The position numbers were made by a program, and so were the translations under genes. A DNA stretch of 64,000 nt from Bacteroidota bacterium (lineage in GTDB: Bacteria > Bacteroidota > Bacteroidia > M30B66). Under the pieces are notes generated by a model that saw only the letters and a list, made by a program, of their open reading frames with translations, did not search any database and was not told the DNA's origin. Position 1 is the first letter of the stretch, and each line of letters opens with the position of its first letter. Where the stretch lies: positions 1 through 64,000 of the forward strand of contig JAIXUS010000015.1 of NCBI GenBank assembly GCA_027483445.1. Direction: 5' to 3'. Below are positions 8,799 through 22,209 of this stretch, one piece after another.

Positions 8799-8833
8799 CG
8801 TATTGCGTATCACGTATGTCGTATTTCGTACAC
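8799..8833 (+). repeat. CGTATNN heptamer array, pair 1 left
   Basis: Five consecutive seven-base units read CGTATTG, CGTATCA, CGTATGT, CGTATTT, CGTACAC. The period is exact and the last two bases of each unit vary. Confidence 0.7.
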
Positions 8834-9154: not shown

Positions 9155-9189
9155 TCATACGCAGTACGGAATACGTAATACGCTGTACG
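9155..9189 (-). repeat. CGTATNN heptamer array, pair 1 right
   Basis: Five seven-base units on the minus strand (CGTACAG, CGTATTA, CGTATTC, CGTACTG, CGTATGA), facing the array at 8799-8833. Confidence 0.7.
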
Positions 9190-16188: not shown

Positions 16189-17979
16189 TTAAAAGCAGTA
16201 TTTGTTCGCTTCAATTAACCTTTGGGCAATACGTTGGCGAGCATCTTTGGTGTTTAATGGAGCCACTTTGGTAAAGCGGCGAAGCCCCATCAGCATCATT
16301 TTCTGCTCATCGCCTTCGGTAAATGAATTGATGGCATTTTTTCCGGCGATGTTTATTTTATCGGCTGCCTCGTATATGTAAACCCTGGCCATATCGATTT
16401 GCAGTGCAGAATCGGCATCTCCAACTTGTGAATGAAGCTTTTCGGTACGCAGAAGGATTGACTCAGCCACATACAATTCAATCAACATATCGGCAATGTT
16501 CATGAGGATTTCCTGCTCCTTCGCCAAGGTCATCATCAGCTTTTGAACCGCCGATCCGGCCACCATCAATACAGCTTTCTTAAATCCGGCAATGGCCTTC
16601 TTTTCGGCGGCAAACAGTGTTTCATCAATTTCACCAAAATCAGGAATGCCCATCAGTTCTGAAGCTACTTCCATCGCAGGGCCCATCAGATCAAGCTCAC
16701 CCTTCATGGCACGCTTCAGCATCATGTCGACCGTGAGCATTCGGTTAATTTCGTTGGTACCCTCAAAGATCCGGTTGATGCGCGCATCGCGGTAAGCCCT
16801 GTCCATCGGAGCTTCGGCCGAATAGCCCATTCCACCGTAAATCTGTACGCCCTCATCAACAACATAGTCGAGGGTTTCGGAGCCGTGCACCTTCATAATC
16901 GCGCATTCAACGGCAAACTGCTCCACGCTCTTTAAACGGGCCTTTCCAGGCTCCATGCCCGAAGCAATCAAGGCCTCATAGGCATCATCAATGTTTTGTC
17001 CCGCGCGGTAAGTAGCGGCTTCCGAAGCGTAGGTTTTGATGGCCATTTCGGCCAGTTTGTGACGAATCGCACCGTATTTCGAAATCGAACGGCCAAATTG
17101 TTCGCGCTCATTGGCATAGTTCAACGCGGTGCTGATGCATTGTTTACATCCGCCAATGGCGGCCGCAGCCAATTTAATACGACCAATATTCAAGATGTTT
17201 ACGGCGATTTTAAAGCCGTTCTGGCGCTCCGACAATAGGTTTTCTACCGGAACTAGGCAATCGTTCAGGAACACCTGCACGGTGGATGAACCCTTGATGC
17301 CCATCTTTTTCTCCTCTTCATTCAGGCTCAACCCCGGATAATTGCGTTCAACAATGAAAGCACTCAGGTTTTCATCGTCGTCGATTTTGGCAAACACGGT
17401 GTACACATCGGCGAAGCCACCATTGGTAATCCACATTTTCTGTCCGTTCAGCTTGTAATGCTTGCCGTCTTCGGTGAGGGTTGCCTTGGTTTTTCCGCTA
17501 TTGGCATCCGACCCGCTGCCCGGCTCGGTAAGGCAGTAGGCCGCCTTCCATTCGCCACTCGCCAATTTGGGAATGTACTTCTTCTTCTGCTCTTCGTTGC
17601 CGTAATACAGGATTGGCAGCGTTCCAATGCCTGTGTGGGCCGATAAGGCCACGGCAAAGGAAAATCCGGCTCCCGCTACCTCTGCCACGAGCATCGAGGT
17701 GTTGAAGTCTTTGCCAAACCCACCGTATTCCTCCGGAACTGAAACGCCCATGAGCCCGAGCTCACCGGCTTTGTCGAGCAGCGATGGCATCAAGCCCGGC
17801 TCCAGTTTATCAATGCGATCTAAATTGGGATGCACTTCCGCATCCAGAAACTGCTGCGTCATGGCCGCAATTTCCCGTTGCTCTTCGGTCCAGTTTTCCG
17901 GGATGAAAATATCCTCTGCCTGGGTTTCGCGGATCAGAAATTCACCGCCTTTGATGGCTGTTTTTTCGGTGGTACTCAT
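16189..17979 (-). CDS. acyl-CoA dehydrogenase, long form
   Basis: A 596-residue flavoprotein that introduces the first double bond in fatty-acid beta-oxidation. The N- and middle domains carry AAYCLTEPGSGSDA and KMWITNGGFADVY (FAD binding); the catalytic base region is IYGGMGYSAEAPMDRAYRD and INRIFEGTNEINR. The length exceeds ordinary acyl-CoA dehydrogenases (about 380 residues) by an extra C-terminal helical domain, as in the very-long-chain type common in Bacteroidota. ATG 17979 (MSTTEKTAIKGG) is chosen; the longer frame would run into the thiolase gene. Last gene of the operon. Confidence 0.9.
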   Translation of the reverse strand: MSTTEKTAIKGGEFLIRETQAEDIFIPENWTEEQREIAAMTQQFLDAEVHPNLDRIDKLEPGLMPSLLDKAGELGLMGVSVPEEYGGFGKDFNTSMLVAEVAGAGFSFAVALSAHTGIGTLPILYYGNEEQKKKYIPKLASGEWKAAYCLTEPGSGSDANSGKTKATLTEDGKHYKLNGQKMWITNGGFADVYTVFAKIDDDENLSAFIVERNYPGLSLNEEEKKMGIKGSSTVQVFLNDCLVPVENLLSERQNGFKIAVNILNIGRIKLAAAAIGGCKQCISTALNYANEREQFGRSISKYGAIRHKLAEMAIKTYASEAATYRAGQNIDDAYEALIASGMEPGKARLKSVEQFAVECAIMKVHGSETLDYVVDEGVQIYGGMGYSAEAPMDRAYRDARINRIFEGTNEINRMLTVDMMLKRAMKGELDLMGPAMEVASELMGIPDFGEIDETLFAAEKKAIAGFKKAVLMVAGSAVQKLMMTLAKEQEILMNIADMLIELYVAESILLRTEKLHSQVGDADSALQIDMARVYIYEAADKINIAGKNAINSFTEGDEQKMMLMGLRRFTKVAPLNTKDARQRIAQRLIEANKYCF

Positions 17980-18001
17980 GGTGTAAAGGATTGATGGTGA
18001 A

Positions 18002-19186
18002 TTAAAAGCGTTCAAAAATTCCCGCGGCGCCCTGACCGGTTCCCACACACATGGTTACCATGCCGTAGCGCTGATTGCGGCGTTTCATTTCGTTTAACAG
18101 TTGTACGGTAAGCTTGGCGCCTGAGCAGCCGAGCGGATGACCCAGCGCGATGGCTCCGCCATTTACGTTGATCCGCGAAGGATCCAGCTCTAACTTGCGA
18201 ATTACCGCCAACGACTGTGAGGCAAAGGCCTCGTTCAGCTCTATCAGCTCAATGTCGTTCTTGCTCAGTCCCGCTTTTTCCAAGGCTTTCGGAATGGCAT
18301 ACACCGGACCAACACCCATAATTCGGGGTTCCAATCCGGCAACTGCATACGACACCAAACGGGCCTGAGGCGCTAAGCCGAGCTCATTCATCAGCCGTTC
18401 CGACATCATCAGCACAAAGGCGGCGCCATCGGAGGTTTGGGAAGAGTTTCCGGCGGTAATCACCCCGTCGGCGGCAAAAACAGGCTTCAGCTTGGCCAGG
18501 CGGTCGAGGGAAGTGTCGGCACGAGGCCCTTCATCGGTATCGACCACGTACTTTTTCACCGTTCGTTTCTCCTTCTCATTCAGGAAAATCTCTTCAATTT
18601 CGATGGGCACAATCTCCTCTTTGAAGCGGCCCGATTGAATGGCATCCACGGCTTTGCGGTGCGACTCGTAGGCAAACTGATCCTGATCATCGCGGTTTAC
18701 GCCAAACTCCTTCGCCACAGCTTCGGCGGTGAGCCCCATGCCCCAGTAATAATCAGCATGGTGCTTGGCCACCTCGTAATTTGGCACGATTCGCCATCCA
18801 CCAAAAGGTATGGGCGACATGGTTTCAACGCCACCGGCAATGATGCAATCGGCTTGTCCCGCCTGAATCTTGGCTGCCGCGATGGCAATGGTCTCCAGTC
18901 CCGACGCACAATAGCGGTTTACGGTCATGCCCGGCACCTTGTCGGTATGCAAGCCCATGAGCGAAATCATCCGCCCGATGTTGAGGCCTTGTTCTGCTTC
19001 CGGTGTGGCATTGCCCACAATTACGTCGTCGATGCGCGCTTTGTCGAGTTGCGGCACCTGCTTCATGAGGTGTTCAATTACTCGCGCCGCAAGGTCATCA
19101 GGCCGCATAAAACGAAACATGCCGCGCGGCGCCTTGCCAACTGCGGTGCGAAATCCGGTAATGAGGTATGGAGTGTTTGTTTGCAT
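18002..19186 (-). CDS. fadA: acetyl-CoA C-acyltransferase (thiolase)
   Basis: A 394-residue degradative thiolase that cleaves 3-ketoacyl-CoA. The acylated cysteine is in VNRYCASGLETIA (about residue 90), the His in VNGGAIALGHPLGCSG (about 350) and the second Cys in MVTMCVGTGQGAAGIFE (about 380). It sits between the four-helix-bundle gene and the acyl-CoA dehydrogenase. Its ATG is preceded directly by a heptamer array rather than by a normal operon spacer, which suggests the insertion separates it from fadB. Confidence 0.92.
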   Translation of the reverse strand: MQTNTPYLITGFRTAVGKAPRGMFRFMRPDDLAARVIEHLMKQVPQLDKARIDDVIVGNATPEAEQGLNIGRMISLMGLHTDKVPGMTVNRYCASGLETIAIAAAKIQAGQADCIIAGGVETMSPIPFGGWRIVPNYEVAKHHADYYWGMGLTAEAVAKEFGVNRDDQDQFAYESHRKAVDAIQSGRFKEEIVPIEIEEIFLNEKEKRTVKKYVVDTDEGPRADTSLDRLAKLKPVFAADGVITAGNSSQTSDGAAFVLMMSERLMNELGLAPQARLVSYAVAGLEPRIMGVGPVYAIPKALEKAGLSKNDIELIELNEAFASQSLAVIRKLELDPSRINVNGGAIALGHPLGCSGAKLTVQLLNEMKRRNQRYGMVTMCVGTGQGAAGIFERF

Positions 19187-19193
19187 CGGTTGA

Positions 19194-19228
19194 GGTATTA
19201 CGTATTACGTATTGCGTATTGCGTTTTA
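19194..19228 (+). repeat. CGTATNN heptamer array, pair 2 left
   Basis: Five seven-base units: GGTATTA, CGTATTA, CGTATTG, CGTATTG, CGTTTTA. The last unit contains the stop codon of the four-helix-bundle gene. The 17-mer at 19208-19224 is exactly inverted at 19769-19785. Confidence 0.75.
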
Positions 19229-19615
19229 TGAATTAGGGGTATTACGGTTTGAACGGTCAATTGATTTACGAATCGACTGTTGTAGGTTCACATTCATTCG
19301 GCTTATCGCATCAATGTATTCTAGTATCTGTGAACGTTCTGTTTCATTGAGATACTTTCGTCGAAATGAAATTTCTGTTTGAAAATGGAGTTCAGCTGCG
19401 GAACCATTTGAAATACCAATGAAGTGATCGAATTCTTTTTGTGAATTTCTGCCAGCTCCTTCGGCAATATTTGATCCTATTGAAACTGCGCATCTTCGCA
19501 TTTGATCGCTCAAACCATAGCGCTCGGAATTAGGAAAATTGGCAGTAACTTCATAAATGAAATCAGCCAGTTCCAGCGCTTTTTGCCAGGTTCTTAATTT
19601 ACTTGCATCATTCAT
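19226..19615 (-). CDS. four-helix-bundle protein (23S rRNA intervening-sequence family)
   Basis: A 129-residue protein of the four-helix-bundle family first known from 23S rRNA intervening sequences and related to the Avd accessory proteins of diversity-generating retroelements. Characteristic motifs are LRTWQKALELADFIYEVT at the start, YGLSDQMRRCAVSIGSNIAEG in the middle and EFDHFIGISNGSAAEL. Function is unknown; nucleic-acid binding is suspected for relatives because of their basic faces. The gene interrupts an otherwise standard fadB-fadA-acyl-CoA dehydrogenase operon and is enclosed by inward-facing heptamer arrays, so it looks like an inserted cassette. Confidence 0.85.
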   Translation of the reverse strand: MNDASKLRTWQKALELADFIYEVTANFPNSERYGLSDQMRRCAVSIGSNIAEGAGRNSQKEFDHFIGISNGSAAELHFQTEISFRRKYLNETERSQILEYIDAISRMNVNLQQSIRKSIDRSNRNTPNS

Positions 19616-19757
19616 GGTCTCTTTATTTTATTGTCTGACAGTGATCTTTTACTCGGACTTTATTTTTCTTTTTTCAATTAAAACTCAACAACATGCTTTC
19701 CTTAAAACTTCCAATCTTTTCACATCAAATTTGTGATGTTGGCCTGGTCACGGTAGC

Positions 19758-19799
19758 TGCTACGTTATACGCAATACGCAATACGTTATACGCAATACG
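19758..19799 (-). repeat. CGTATNN heptamer array, pair 2 right
   Basis: Five perfect minus-strand units (CGTATTG, CGTATAA, CGTATTG, CGTATTG, CGTATAA) at 19799-19765 plus a degenerate sixth (CGTAGCA). It lies 14 bases after the fadB stop. Confidence 0.75.
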
Positions 19800-19812: not shown

Positions 19813-22209
19813 TCAATTCCTCAACACCTTCCCCGTTTTCAAAATGCTCTGAATCCTCTCCAAAGTCTTCTTTTCGCCGCAGAGGCTGAGGAAGGCTTCG
19901 CGTTCGAGGTCGAGGAGGTATTGTTCGGAGACTTCCGTTGGTGCGCTGAGGTCGCCGCCGCACATGACGTAACCGAGCTTTTCGGAGATTTTCTTATCGT
20001 GTTCGCTGATGTAGTTTCCACTATACATGGTGTTGGCGCCCGCGTACACCATGCCGAGACCAGAACGGCCCAACACTTTGATGTCGCGGCGCATCATCGG
20101 TTTCACGTAGCCCCGTGCCGAGAGCTCCAGCACTTTTGCCTTGGCTTGGGCAATGCGGCGTGAAGGATTGGTTACTATTTCATCACGGCCCGGAATCAAA
20201 ATGCCCATATTCATTGCCTCACAAGCCGATGTTGCCACCTTGGCCTGTCCAATCTTCAGGAAGTTATCACGCAGTAGATTCACCATGATATCGCCTTCTT
20301 TGTAGGCATCCGACGTGCGGAGCACAAACTCCTTCGTACCGCCACCGGCCGGAATTAAGCCAACACCGAATTCCACCAGCCCGATATAGGTTTCGGCGGC
20401 GGCCACCACTGCATCAGCGTGTAGATTCATCTCGCAGCCGCCACCCAGCGTTAGTCCTTGTGGCGCAGTAACCACAGGCACCGCTGAGAAACGAATTTTC
20501 ATCACCGTATTTTGGAAGGCGCGGATAGAGAAATCGATTTCCTCCCATTCCTGCTCAACAGCCATCATAAACACCATGGCCAGATTAGCCCCGGCTGAGA
20601 AATTGGGTGCATCGGAGGCAATCACCAAACCGAGAAAATCCTTCTCTGCAATGTCGATGGCCTTCTGAACACCTTGCAATACCTCGGTGCCAATGGAATT
20701 CATCTTGGTGTGAAACTCCAGATTCAGCACTCCGTCGCCGATGTCGGTGAGTGTGGTCCCCGAGTTCTTCCAAACTGTATGCGTGGGGCGGATATGATCG
20801 AGAATGATGAACGATTCGTAGCCCGGAATGCCCTTGTAACTCTTGGAAGGAATATCGTAATACAGCTTTTTGCCGCCTTCAATCTTGTAGAAGCTGCTAT
20901 GCCCGGCGGCCAGCATTTCATCTACCCAGGCCGAATAAGCAATTCCGGCTGACTTCATTTGGCTTACTGTGTTGCTGAGGCCGGTGGCGTCCCAACTTTC
21001 GAATGGACCCATTTCCCAGCCAAAGCCGGCTTTCAGGGCTTCGTCGATGCGGTAGAGCTCGTCGGCAATCTCCGGAATTCGGAACGAAACGTAGGCAAAA
21101 AGTGCGAAGAAGTTCTTGCGGTAAAACTCACCGGCCTGGTCTTTCCCGTTAATGAGCACTTTGTAGCGTTCGCGGAGGTTTTCAATCGGCTTGGTTTGCT
21201 CAAGCGTGGCGAATTTTACCTTTTGCTGCGGACGGTATTCCAGCGTGTTGAGATCGAGGGCCAGGATTTCCGATTTGCCATCCCCCGCCTTTACCTTTTT
21301 ATAAAAGCCCTGACCGGATTTGTCGCCCAGCCAGCGATTTTCGTTCATTTTCAGGATGTACTCAGGCAGCTCAAAATAGCTTCGGGCTTCGTCGTTCGGA
21401 CAGTTTTCCTTGAGCCCTTTGGCAACATTTACAAGGGTGTCGAGACCTACCACGTCGGTGGTGCGGAATGTGGCCGACTTGGGGCGCCCCAAAACGGGAC
21501 CGGTAAGCTTGTCGACCTGCTCTACGCTGAGCCCCATTTCTTTCACCGTGTGGAAGAGGTAGAGAATGCTAAACACCCCGATTCTGTTGGCAATAAAGGC
21601 CGGAGTGTCTTTGCAGAGCACCGTGGTTTTTCCGAGGAAACGATCGCCGTAATGCATCAGAAAATCCACCACTTCGGTTGATGTTTCCGGTGTGGGTATG
21701 ATTTCGAGCAGGCGCAGGTAACGCGGCGGGTTGAAGAAGTGTGTGCCGCAGAAGTGCTTGCGGAAATCGTCAGAGCGTCCTTCGGCCATCATTTGAATGG
21801 GAATGCCCGAAGTATTGGAGGTGATGAGTGTTCCCGGCTTGCGGAATTGCTCAACACGTTCGAAGAGGCTGCGTTTAATGTCGAGCCGCTCCACGACTAC
21901 TTCAATGATCCAGTCGCAGTGGGCAATCTCCTTCAGGTTATCGTCGAAATTGCCGGTTTTTATTCGCTTAGCCACGCCGCTGTGGTAGGCCGGAGAGGGG
22001 TTCGATTTGAGGGCGAAGGCGAGCGCGTCGTTTACGATTTTATTGCGAAATGCCGGCGATGCAGCCATGGCCTGATCGGCATCGGGTGGGAGCGTAGGCA
22101 CAATATCGAGCAGGAGCACTTCAACGTCGATATTGGCAAAATGGCAGGCAATGCGCGAGCCCATAACGCCCGAACCCAAAACGGCAACTTTGCGGATGTG
22201 TCGGTTCAT
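19813..22209 (-). CDS. fadB: 3-hydroxyacyl-CoA dehydrogenase / enoyl-CoA hydratase fusion
   Basis: A 798-residue bifunctional beta-oxidation enzyme. The N-terminal Rossmann domain begins VAVLGSGVMGSRIA and binds NAD; FCGTHFFNPPRYLRLLEI marks the dehydrogenase active-site region (about 140-160). The C-terminal half contains an enoyl-CoA hydratase/crotonase domain (SAGANLAMV, TLGGGCEMNLHADAVVAA near 600). This order, dehydrogenase first and hydratase last, is the reverse of E. coli FadB and is the usual Bacteroidota form. Its start overlaps the marR stop (ATGA), so the two are translationally coupled. Confidence 0.9.
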   Translation of the reverse strand: MNRHIRKVAVLGSGVMGSRIACHFANIDVEVLLLDIVPTLPPDADQAMAASPAFRNKIVNDALAFALKSNPSPAYHSGVAKRIKTGNFDDNLKEIAHCDWIIEVVVERLDIKRSLFERVEQFRKPGTLITSNTSGIPIQMMAEGRSDDFRKHFCGTHFFNPPRYLRLLEIIPTPETSTEVVDFLMHYGDRFLGKTTVLCKDTPAFIANRIGVFSILYLFHTVKEMGLSVEQVDKLTGPVLGRPKSATFRTTDVVGLDTLVNVAKGLKENCPNDEARSYFELPEYILKMNENRWLGDKSGQGFYKKVKAGDGKSEILALDLNTLEYRPQQKVKFATLEQTKPIENLRERYKVLINGKDQAGEFYRKNFFALFAYVSFRIPEIADELYRIDEALKAGFGWEMGPFESWDATGLSNTVSQMKSAGIAYSAWVDEMLAAGHSSFYKIEGGKKLYYDIPSKSYKGIPGYESFIILDHIRPTHTVWKNSGTTLTDIGDGVLNLEFHTKMNSIGTEVLQGVQKAIDIAEKDFLGLVIASDAPNFSAGANLAMVFMMAVEQEWEEIDFSIRAFQNTVMKIRFSAVPVVTAPQGLTLGGGCEMNLHADAVVAAAETYIGLVEFGVGLIPAGGGTKEFVLRTSDAYKEGDIMVNLLRDNFLKIGQAKVATSACEAMNMGILIPGRDEIVTNPSRRIAQAKAKVLELSARGYVKPMMRRDIKVLGRSGLGMVYAGANTMYSGNYISEHDKKISEKLGYVMCGGDLSAPTEVSEQYLLDLEREAFLSLCGEKKTLERIQSILKTGKVLRN

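Follow-up and report, generated by a model that had tools for sequence, protein, structure and literature searches.

The closest described counterparts of the element analysed here are the intervening sequences (IVSs) of 23S rRNA genes in Coxiella, Leptospira and Azospirillum, where inverted repeats enclose, in sense orientation, a gene for a protein of the same small four-helix-bundle (4HB) family (PF05635/TIGR02436, the S23p or 23S rRNA IVS protein family). To our knowledge, the PF05635 family has no known function. A relative from X. campestris (Protein Data Bank entry 2gsc) has been described as a homopentameric torus, and the S23p open reading frame (ORF) of Coxiella is preceded by tandem GACAGAT heptamers that differ in number from strain to strain (PMC4990558). 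In published work on IVSs the repeats are read as a stem rather than as word-specific arrays on both sides of the gene, and Coxiella is the only case of heptamers beside an S23p ORF in the literature that we found. A homologous family of small helical bundles comprises the Avd and bAvd proteins of diversity-generating retroelements.

Tandem heptamers are also known from gene-less settings. The STRR repeats of cyanobacteria and the P6b stem of the Nostoc trnL intron (TDNGATT / NNTGAGT) consist of degenerate 7-nt tandem units with facing arms, and in P6b one word class replaces another wholesale, a pattern whose origin was called unknown (PMC4476775). No link to a 4HB gene is reported for either (PMC4476775; PMC2670836). 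The TAACTGA repeats of Beggiatoaceae, Cyanobacteria and a few Bacteroidetes are likewise intergenic heptamers; they have a fixed word and form direct repeats near start codons, for which translational control was proposed without mention of a four-helix gene (PMC4679880). A link between heptamer arrays and the PF05635 family appeared in none of the papers that we found, with subscription journals thinly covered, and its novelty is therefore provisional.

In the 64,000-nt stretch of Bacteroidota DNA analysed here (the window), a 4HB gene for 129 amino acids (19226–19615, − strand) lies between two arrays of CGTATNN heptamers that face inward, each detected at period 7 by Tandem Repeats Finder. 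The left array (19194–19228, + strand) reads (GG)TATTA CGTATTA CGTATTG CGTATTG CGTTTTA and the right array (19799–19765, − strand) reads CGTATTG CGTATAA CGTATTG CGTATTG CGTATAA, followed by a degenerate sixth unit, CGTAGCA. The original prediction had described this layout from the letters alone, and re-reading of the sequence confirms to the base the two five-unit arrays, the exact inverted 17-mer that they share (19208–19224 with 19769–19785) and the position of the 4HB stop codon in the last left unit (TAA at 19226–19228). The window contains 10 occurrences of the word CGTATNNCGTAT, where 0.07 would be expected. Like the STRRs, the arrays are intergenic and built of degenerate 7-nt units in tandem and, as in an IVS, the ORF lies between terminal inverted repeats, the best arms being 30 nt long and 93% complementary. 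Unlike a 23S rRNA IVS, which sits in an rRNA gene, the window copy separates fadB from fadA.

The encoded protein is an unambiguous family member, with scores above the curated cut-offs of both Pfam PF05635 (9e-37; 126 bits against 33.8) and NCBIfam TIGR02436 (9e-34; 116 bits against 24). Its match in the Protein Data Bank is 2gsc (4.8e-22), and this structure and the related 2rld contain five chains each. Matches to bAvd (1.2e-5) and DivGenRetAVD (4.9e-7) fall below the curated cut-offs (30 against 80 bits for the Avd model), and the genes next to the window copy are fad genes. A profile search of the cassette found no transposase or recombinase, its protein matching only PF05635 and, below cut-off, bAvd. 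PF05635 genes number three in the source genome and are present in 236 of the 297 genomes sampled in the phylum, as well as in other phyla; in phage records there was a single distant match to the family.

The neighbouring genes lie close to the arrays: fadA (acetyl-CoA C-acyltransferase, 18002–19186) lies 8 nt outside the left array and fadB (3-hydroxyacyl-CoA dehydrogenase / enoyl-CoA hydratase, 19813–22209) lies 13 nt outside the right one. Both are on the − strand, as is the next gene of the operon, a fadE-type acyl-CoA dehydrogenase (16189–18048). The 0.6-kb segment had been taken for an insertion in the fad operon, and the comparison among relatives that was proposed as a check bears out an extra unit: in two genomes of the same family (G006 and G007; loci L135 and L147), fadB and fadA are separated by 27–35 nt with neither gene nor arrays, and six more distant junctions are likewise clean. 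Three congeners (G001, G002 and G003) carry a 4HB orthologue between fadB and fadA, always within facing arrays, and no relative was found with the gene at this site and without arrays. The word itself differs among the carriers. It is CGTATNN in G001 and G003, as in the window, AGTCTTN on both sides at the same junction in G002, and TTCGATN on both sides in G008, from another genus of the family. One further genome retains gene-less facing arrays in the fadB–fadA gap (L141). By coordinate comparison, a 4HB gene adjoins fadA in 28 of 120 genomes that have fadA, and two of the 28 carry one on either side of it, so the fad operon is a favoured site, partly by descent; the copies at this locus are at least partly vertically related. 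In one genome a 4HB gene fragment, apparently a decayed copy, lies between fadA and fadE (L206, 2842–2955).

The original prediction further proposed to check whether CGTATNN arrays flank 4HB genes, and here a genome-wide search speaks against an exclusive link. The source genome holds 33 CGTATNN doublets at about 18 sites, compared with 4 for a reversed-pattern control, and the window itself contains a facing pair without a gene (8799–8828, + strand, and 9157–9187, − strand, with about 330 nt of non-coding DNA between the arrays). The unit is thus not exclusive to the 4HB gene. Nor is CGTATNN a signature of the family, because the word is locus-specific, one of many. Part of the interior of the gene-less pair is repeated at another site (L037). 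Elsewhere in the source genome, CGTATNN and AGTCTNN arrays away from 4HB genes in some cases bound short, non-coding repeated elements. Five such elements (L438, L440, L443, L445 and L447) have AGTCTNN arrays at their ends and a CGTATNN array inside; L438, L440 and L447 have one sequence in common, and several of the five lie at contig ends. These AGTCTNN-bounded elements may be related to the 4HB cassettes as non-autonomous forms. Facing heptamer arrays that enclose only a short loop and no gene also occur in L092–L111 (G130:C1, at 295.9, 306.6 and 378.3 kb of the chunk), one set beside tRNA genes.

Beyond what the original prediction noticed, the layout seen in the window recurs, with a different word at nearly every locus, around most of the 4HB genes sampled in several phyla. 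The samples comprised the class (149 genomes), a genus whose genomes hold as many as 23 copies each, the phylum (297 genomes) and named genomes; they yielded 319 distinct 4HB genes at partly related loci, divided into 156 for discovery and 163 held out. Flanks of 300 nt were scored for inverted matches at thresholds of at least 11 and at least 15, with heuristic array calling. In the discovery set, 81% of the genes reached the lower threshold and 49% the higher. Pairing the left flank of one locus with the right flank of another gave 9.5% and 0.8%; matches in direct orientation gave 23% and 6%, and a control set of 422 other ORFs gave 18% and 0.9%. All three control ORFs that scored at least 20 proved to be 4HB genes. 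Matching inverted flanks were found for 74% of the held-out genes, against 19% for mismatched loci, and about 20–25% of 4HB genes have no detectable matching array pair. Lag autocorrelation of the flanks peaks at 7, 14 and 21. When 864 kb were scanned without bias for inverted pairs of period 7, the hits were the window pair, pairs beside the other array-bearing 4HB gene of the source genome (C39, which lies between facing AAAGTNN arrays) and two AT-rich pairs that resemble chance matches.

Matching flanks are mostly absent from distant bAvd-like paralogues (score of at least 12.5 in two of eight sampled), and no facing heptamer arrays are evident at four loci (L017, L049, L050 and L051) of the third PF05635 gene in the genus, which is itself distant and bAvd-like. 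Outside the phylum, facing heptamers bound 4HB genes in Gemmatirosa (Gemmatimonadota) and in cyanobacteria, including a copy between cas6 and cas4; a clear facing pair is not present at every cyanobacterial copy. The gap from cas6 to cas4 and that from cas10 to a cmr3-family gene hold 4HB genes on cyanobacterial plasmids (L451, L455 and L463). On an Azospirillum plasmid, a 4HB gene with facing heptamer arrays sits inside the large-subunit rRNA gene, so a classical IVS shares this architecture. Two related loci (L062 and L063) have a period of 8 nt instead of 7 nt (CTAAGNNN), and at one locus (L068) GTGGGTA arrays stand on both sides in direct rather than inverted orientation.

A typical cassette is a 4HB gene bordered by two facing arrays of about five heptamers (median 4.6 units), set in sense orientation into a short operon gap. 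The median distance is 4 nt from the upstream stop codon to the first array and 10 nt from the second array to the downstream start codon, and distances this short make the arrays the outer limits of the insert. Among 308 4HB genes with two clear neighbours, 266 run along both and 16 against both. The word varies from locus to locus and is common to the two sides of one locus; in a genus with many 4HB copies, words differ between loci even within one genome. Across words there is a weak shared pattern. Read inward, both arms are poor in C (8%, with about 25% G), and unsupervised alignment of all units recovered a common core, A-G-(T/A) (278, against at most 175 in a column-permuted null), with consensus A(.64)G(.81)T/A in the discovery loci, replicated in the held-out loci (.80/.90). 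The order of variant units, by contrast with this consensus, is hardly matched between arms: z was 0.00 for 29 loci, and for 92 loci the excess was +0.065 ± 0.037 of 7 positions, at most 1.7 standard errors above permuted arrays. With one consensus but hardly any shared order, the two arms look like separate arrays of a single site, not like inverted duplicates that have stayed true to each other, and we set aside a plain terminal inverted repeat or copying through a hairpin on the same ground.

The word changes along with the 4HB protein lineage rather than with genomic position. Word similarity climbs from 0.35 to 0.65 as 4HB protein identity rises, and the correlation persists between loci whose genomic contexts differ (Mantel rho 0.225; null standard deviation 0.045, maximum 0.147 of 300). 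We rejected words determined by the locus, since pairs of loci in the same context had no clear excess of word similarity at equal protein identity. Within the protein, residue 103 offers a suggestive coupling. Where it is Glu, A precedes the core G at 147 of 161 loci, compared with 41 of 74 for other residues; in the window protein it is Ala, and the base before the core G is C. The coupling was the top of about 700 residue–position pairs examined in the discovery set, for which phases were fitted on all seven positions, and it gave p = 0.038 in the held-out set, for which phases were fitted without the tested position. On phylogenetically independent pairs it was not significant (4.2 against 0.8, median p 0.375). 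Given this held-out value and the non-significant independent pairs, we treat the coupling as a lead only. A coupling between residue 31 and G was dropped after failing to replicate (held-out p = 0.10).

A consensus shared without shared order, a word that follows the protein and the lead at residue 103 together point to a word that is read by a co-encoded factor. We consider it somewhat probable (roughly 0.58) that the window segment belongs to a widespread class of IVS-like 4HB cassettes, with arrays that are putative tandem recognition sites for the cassette's own pentameric 4HB ring. In this proposal, which draws on the protein coupling, the near-absence of order conservation, the common core and the known pentamers, a pentameric ring would read one heptamer per subunit through the A-G-(T/A) core, tolerating two or three positions. 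Rings bound at both ends might then mark the cassette, hold it together or process it, either as DNA, perhaps by joining its ends for a move into a new gap, or, like a 23S rRNA IVS, as a segment of the operon transcript. The preserved sense orientation favours a role at the RNA level or a dependence on operon transcription. Binding, function and mobility are all predicted here from sequence comparison. Counting against this reading are the 20–25% of 4HB genes with no matching pair, the same-word arrays that stand apart from 4HB genes in the source genome, the loss of significance of the residue 103 coupling under phylogenetic control, and the sense orientation itself, which may instead reflect an RNA stem. 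The idea that the arrays are recognition sites of the 4HB protein itself, already raised in the original prediction, thus becomes the reading with the best, if indirect, support. The tryptophan RNA-binding attenuation protein (TRAP) is a ring that reads tandem short repeats with free spacer positions. It has an unrelated fold, eleven subunits and five-base spacing, and the likeness is only an analogy, one of logic and not of descent.

The facing arrays might instead act as an RNA stem, in which the arms pair in any heptamer register within the operon transcript and RNase III releases the 4HB mRNA, much as it excises an IVS from 23S rRNA, so that the protein need not read the word. The 266:16 bias to sense orientation in operons would suit such a stem, as would the consensus common to both arms, which makes its formation possible; in the 23S IVS of Coxiella, RNase III cuts a terminal stem of 28 bp (PMC4990558), and the Azospirillum IVS has the same architecture as the cassettes. 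Against a stem, however, arm mismatches show no bias to G·U over A·C (44 against 37), on which ground selection for wobble pairing was rejected; the order of variants is hardly matched between arms, and a stem alone predicts neither the C-poor inward strand, nor the common core, nor the link to protein lineage. We regard this explanation as rather unlikely.

Two further explanations are less likely still. The arrays could have grown by slippage as neutral heptamer microsatellites like the STRRs, with 4HB genes present in or beside them by chance; CGTATNN and AGTCTNN arrays at many source-genome sites without 4HB genes fit this, as do heptamer STRRs (PMC2670836) and the Nostoc P6b stem (PMC4476775), known without a 4HB link. 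It is nonetheless improbable, given that the same inverted word stands on both sides at most 4HB loci and not at other ORFs, that the empty fad sites have no arrays and that the word tracks the protein across contexts. Even less probable, and in our estimate very much so, is an ordinary transposon whose terminal inverted repeats are the arrays. Inverted ends exactly at the borders of the inserted segment, the clean empty sites in the two same-family relatives and the array-bounded, multi-copy non-coding elements of the same genome are what an insertion sequence would leave, but the cassette encodes no transposase, its arms are not faithful inverted copies and the ends differ between loci of one genome.

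A broader and more tentative possibility, which we find doubtful as a whole, is that 4HB (S23p) proteins form rings, that these read tandem heptamers by an evolvable code and that each gene travels in a self-bounded, transposase-less cassette whose two arrays its product recognises, with IVSs, intra-operon 4HB genes, STRR hairpins and trnL P6b as forms or leftovers of one mobile class. A locus-specific array pair that follows the protein gives the PF05635 family a concrete candidate ligand, and it ties the rRNA IVSs to hundreds of copies within ordinary operons, including cas operons. Should the 4HB protein indeed read the word, it would amount to a small ring whose sequence code can evolve.
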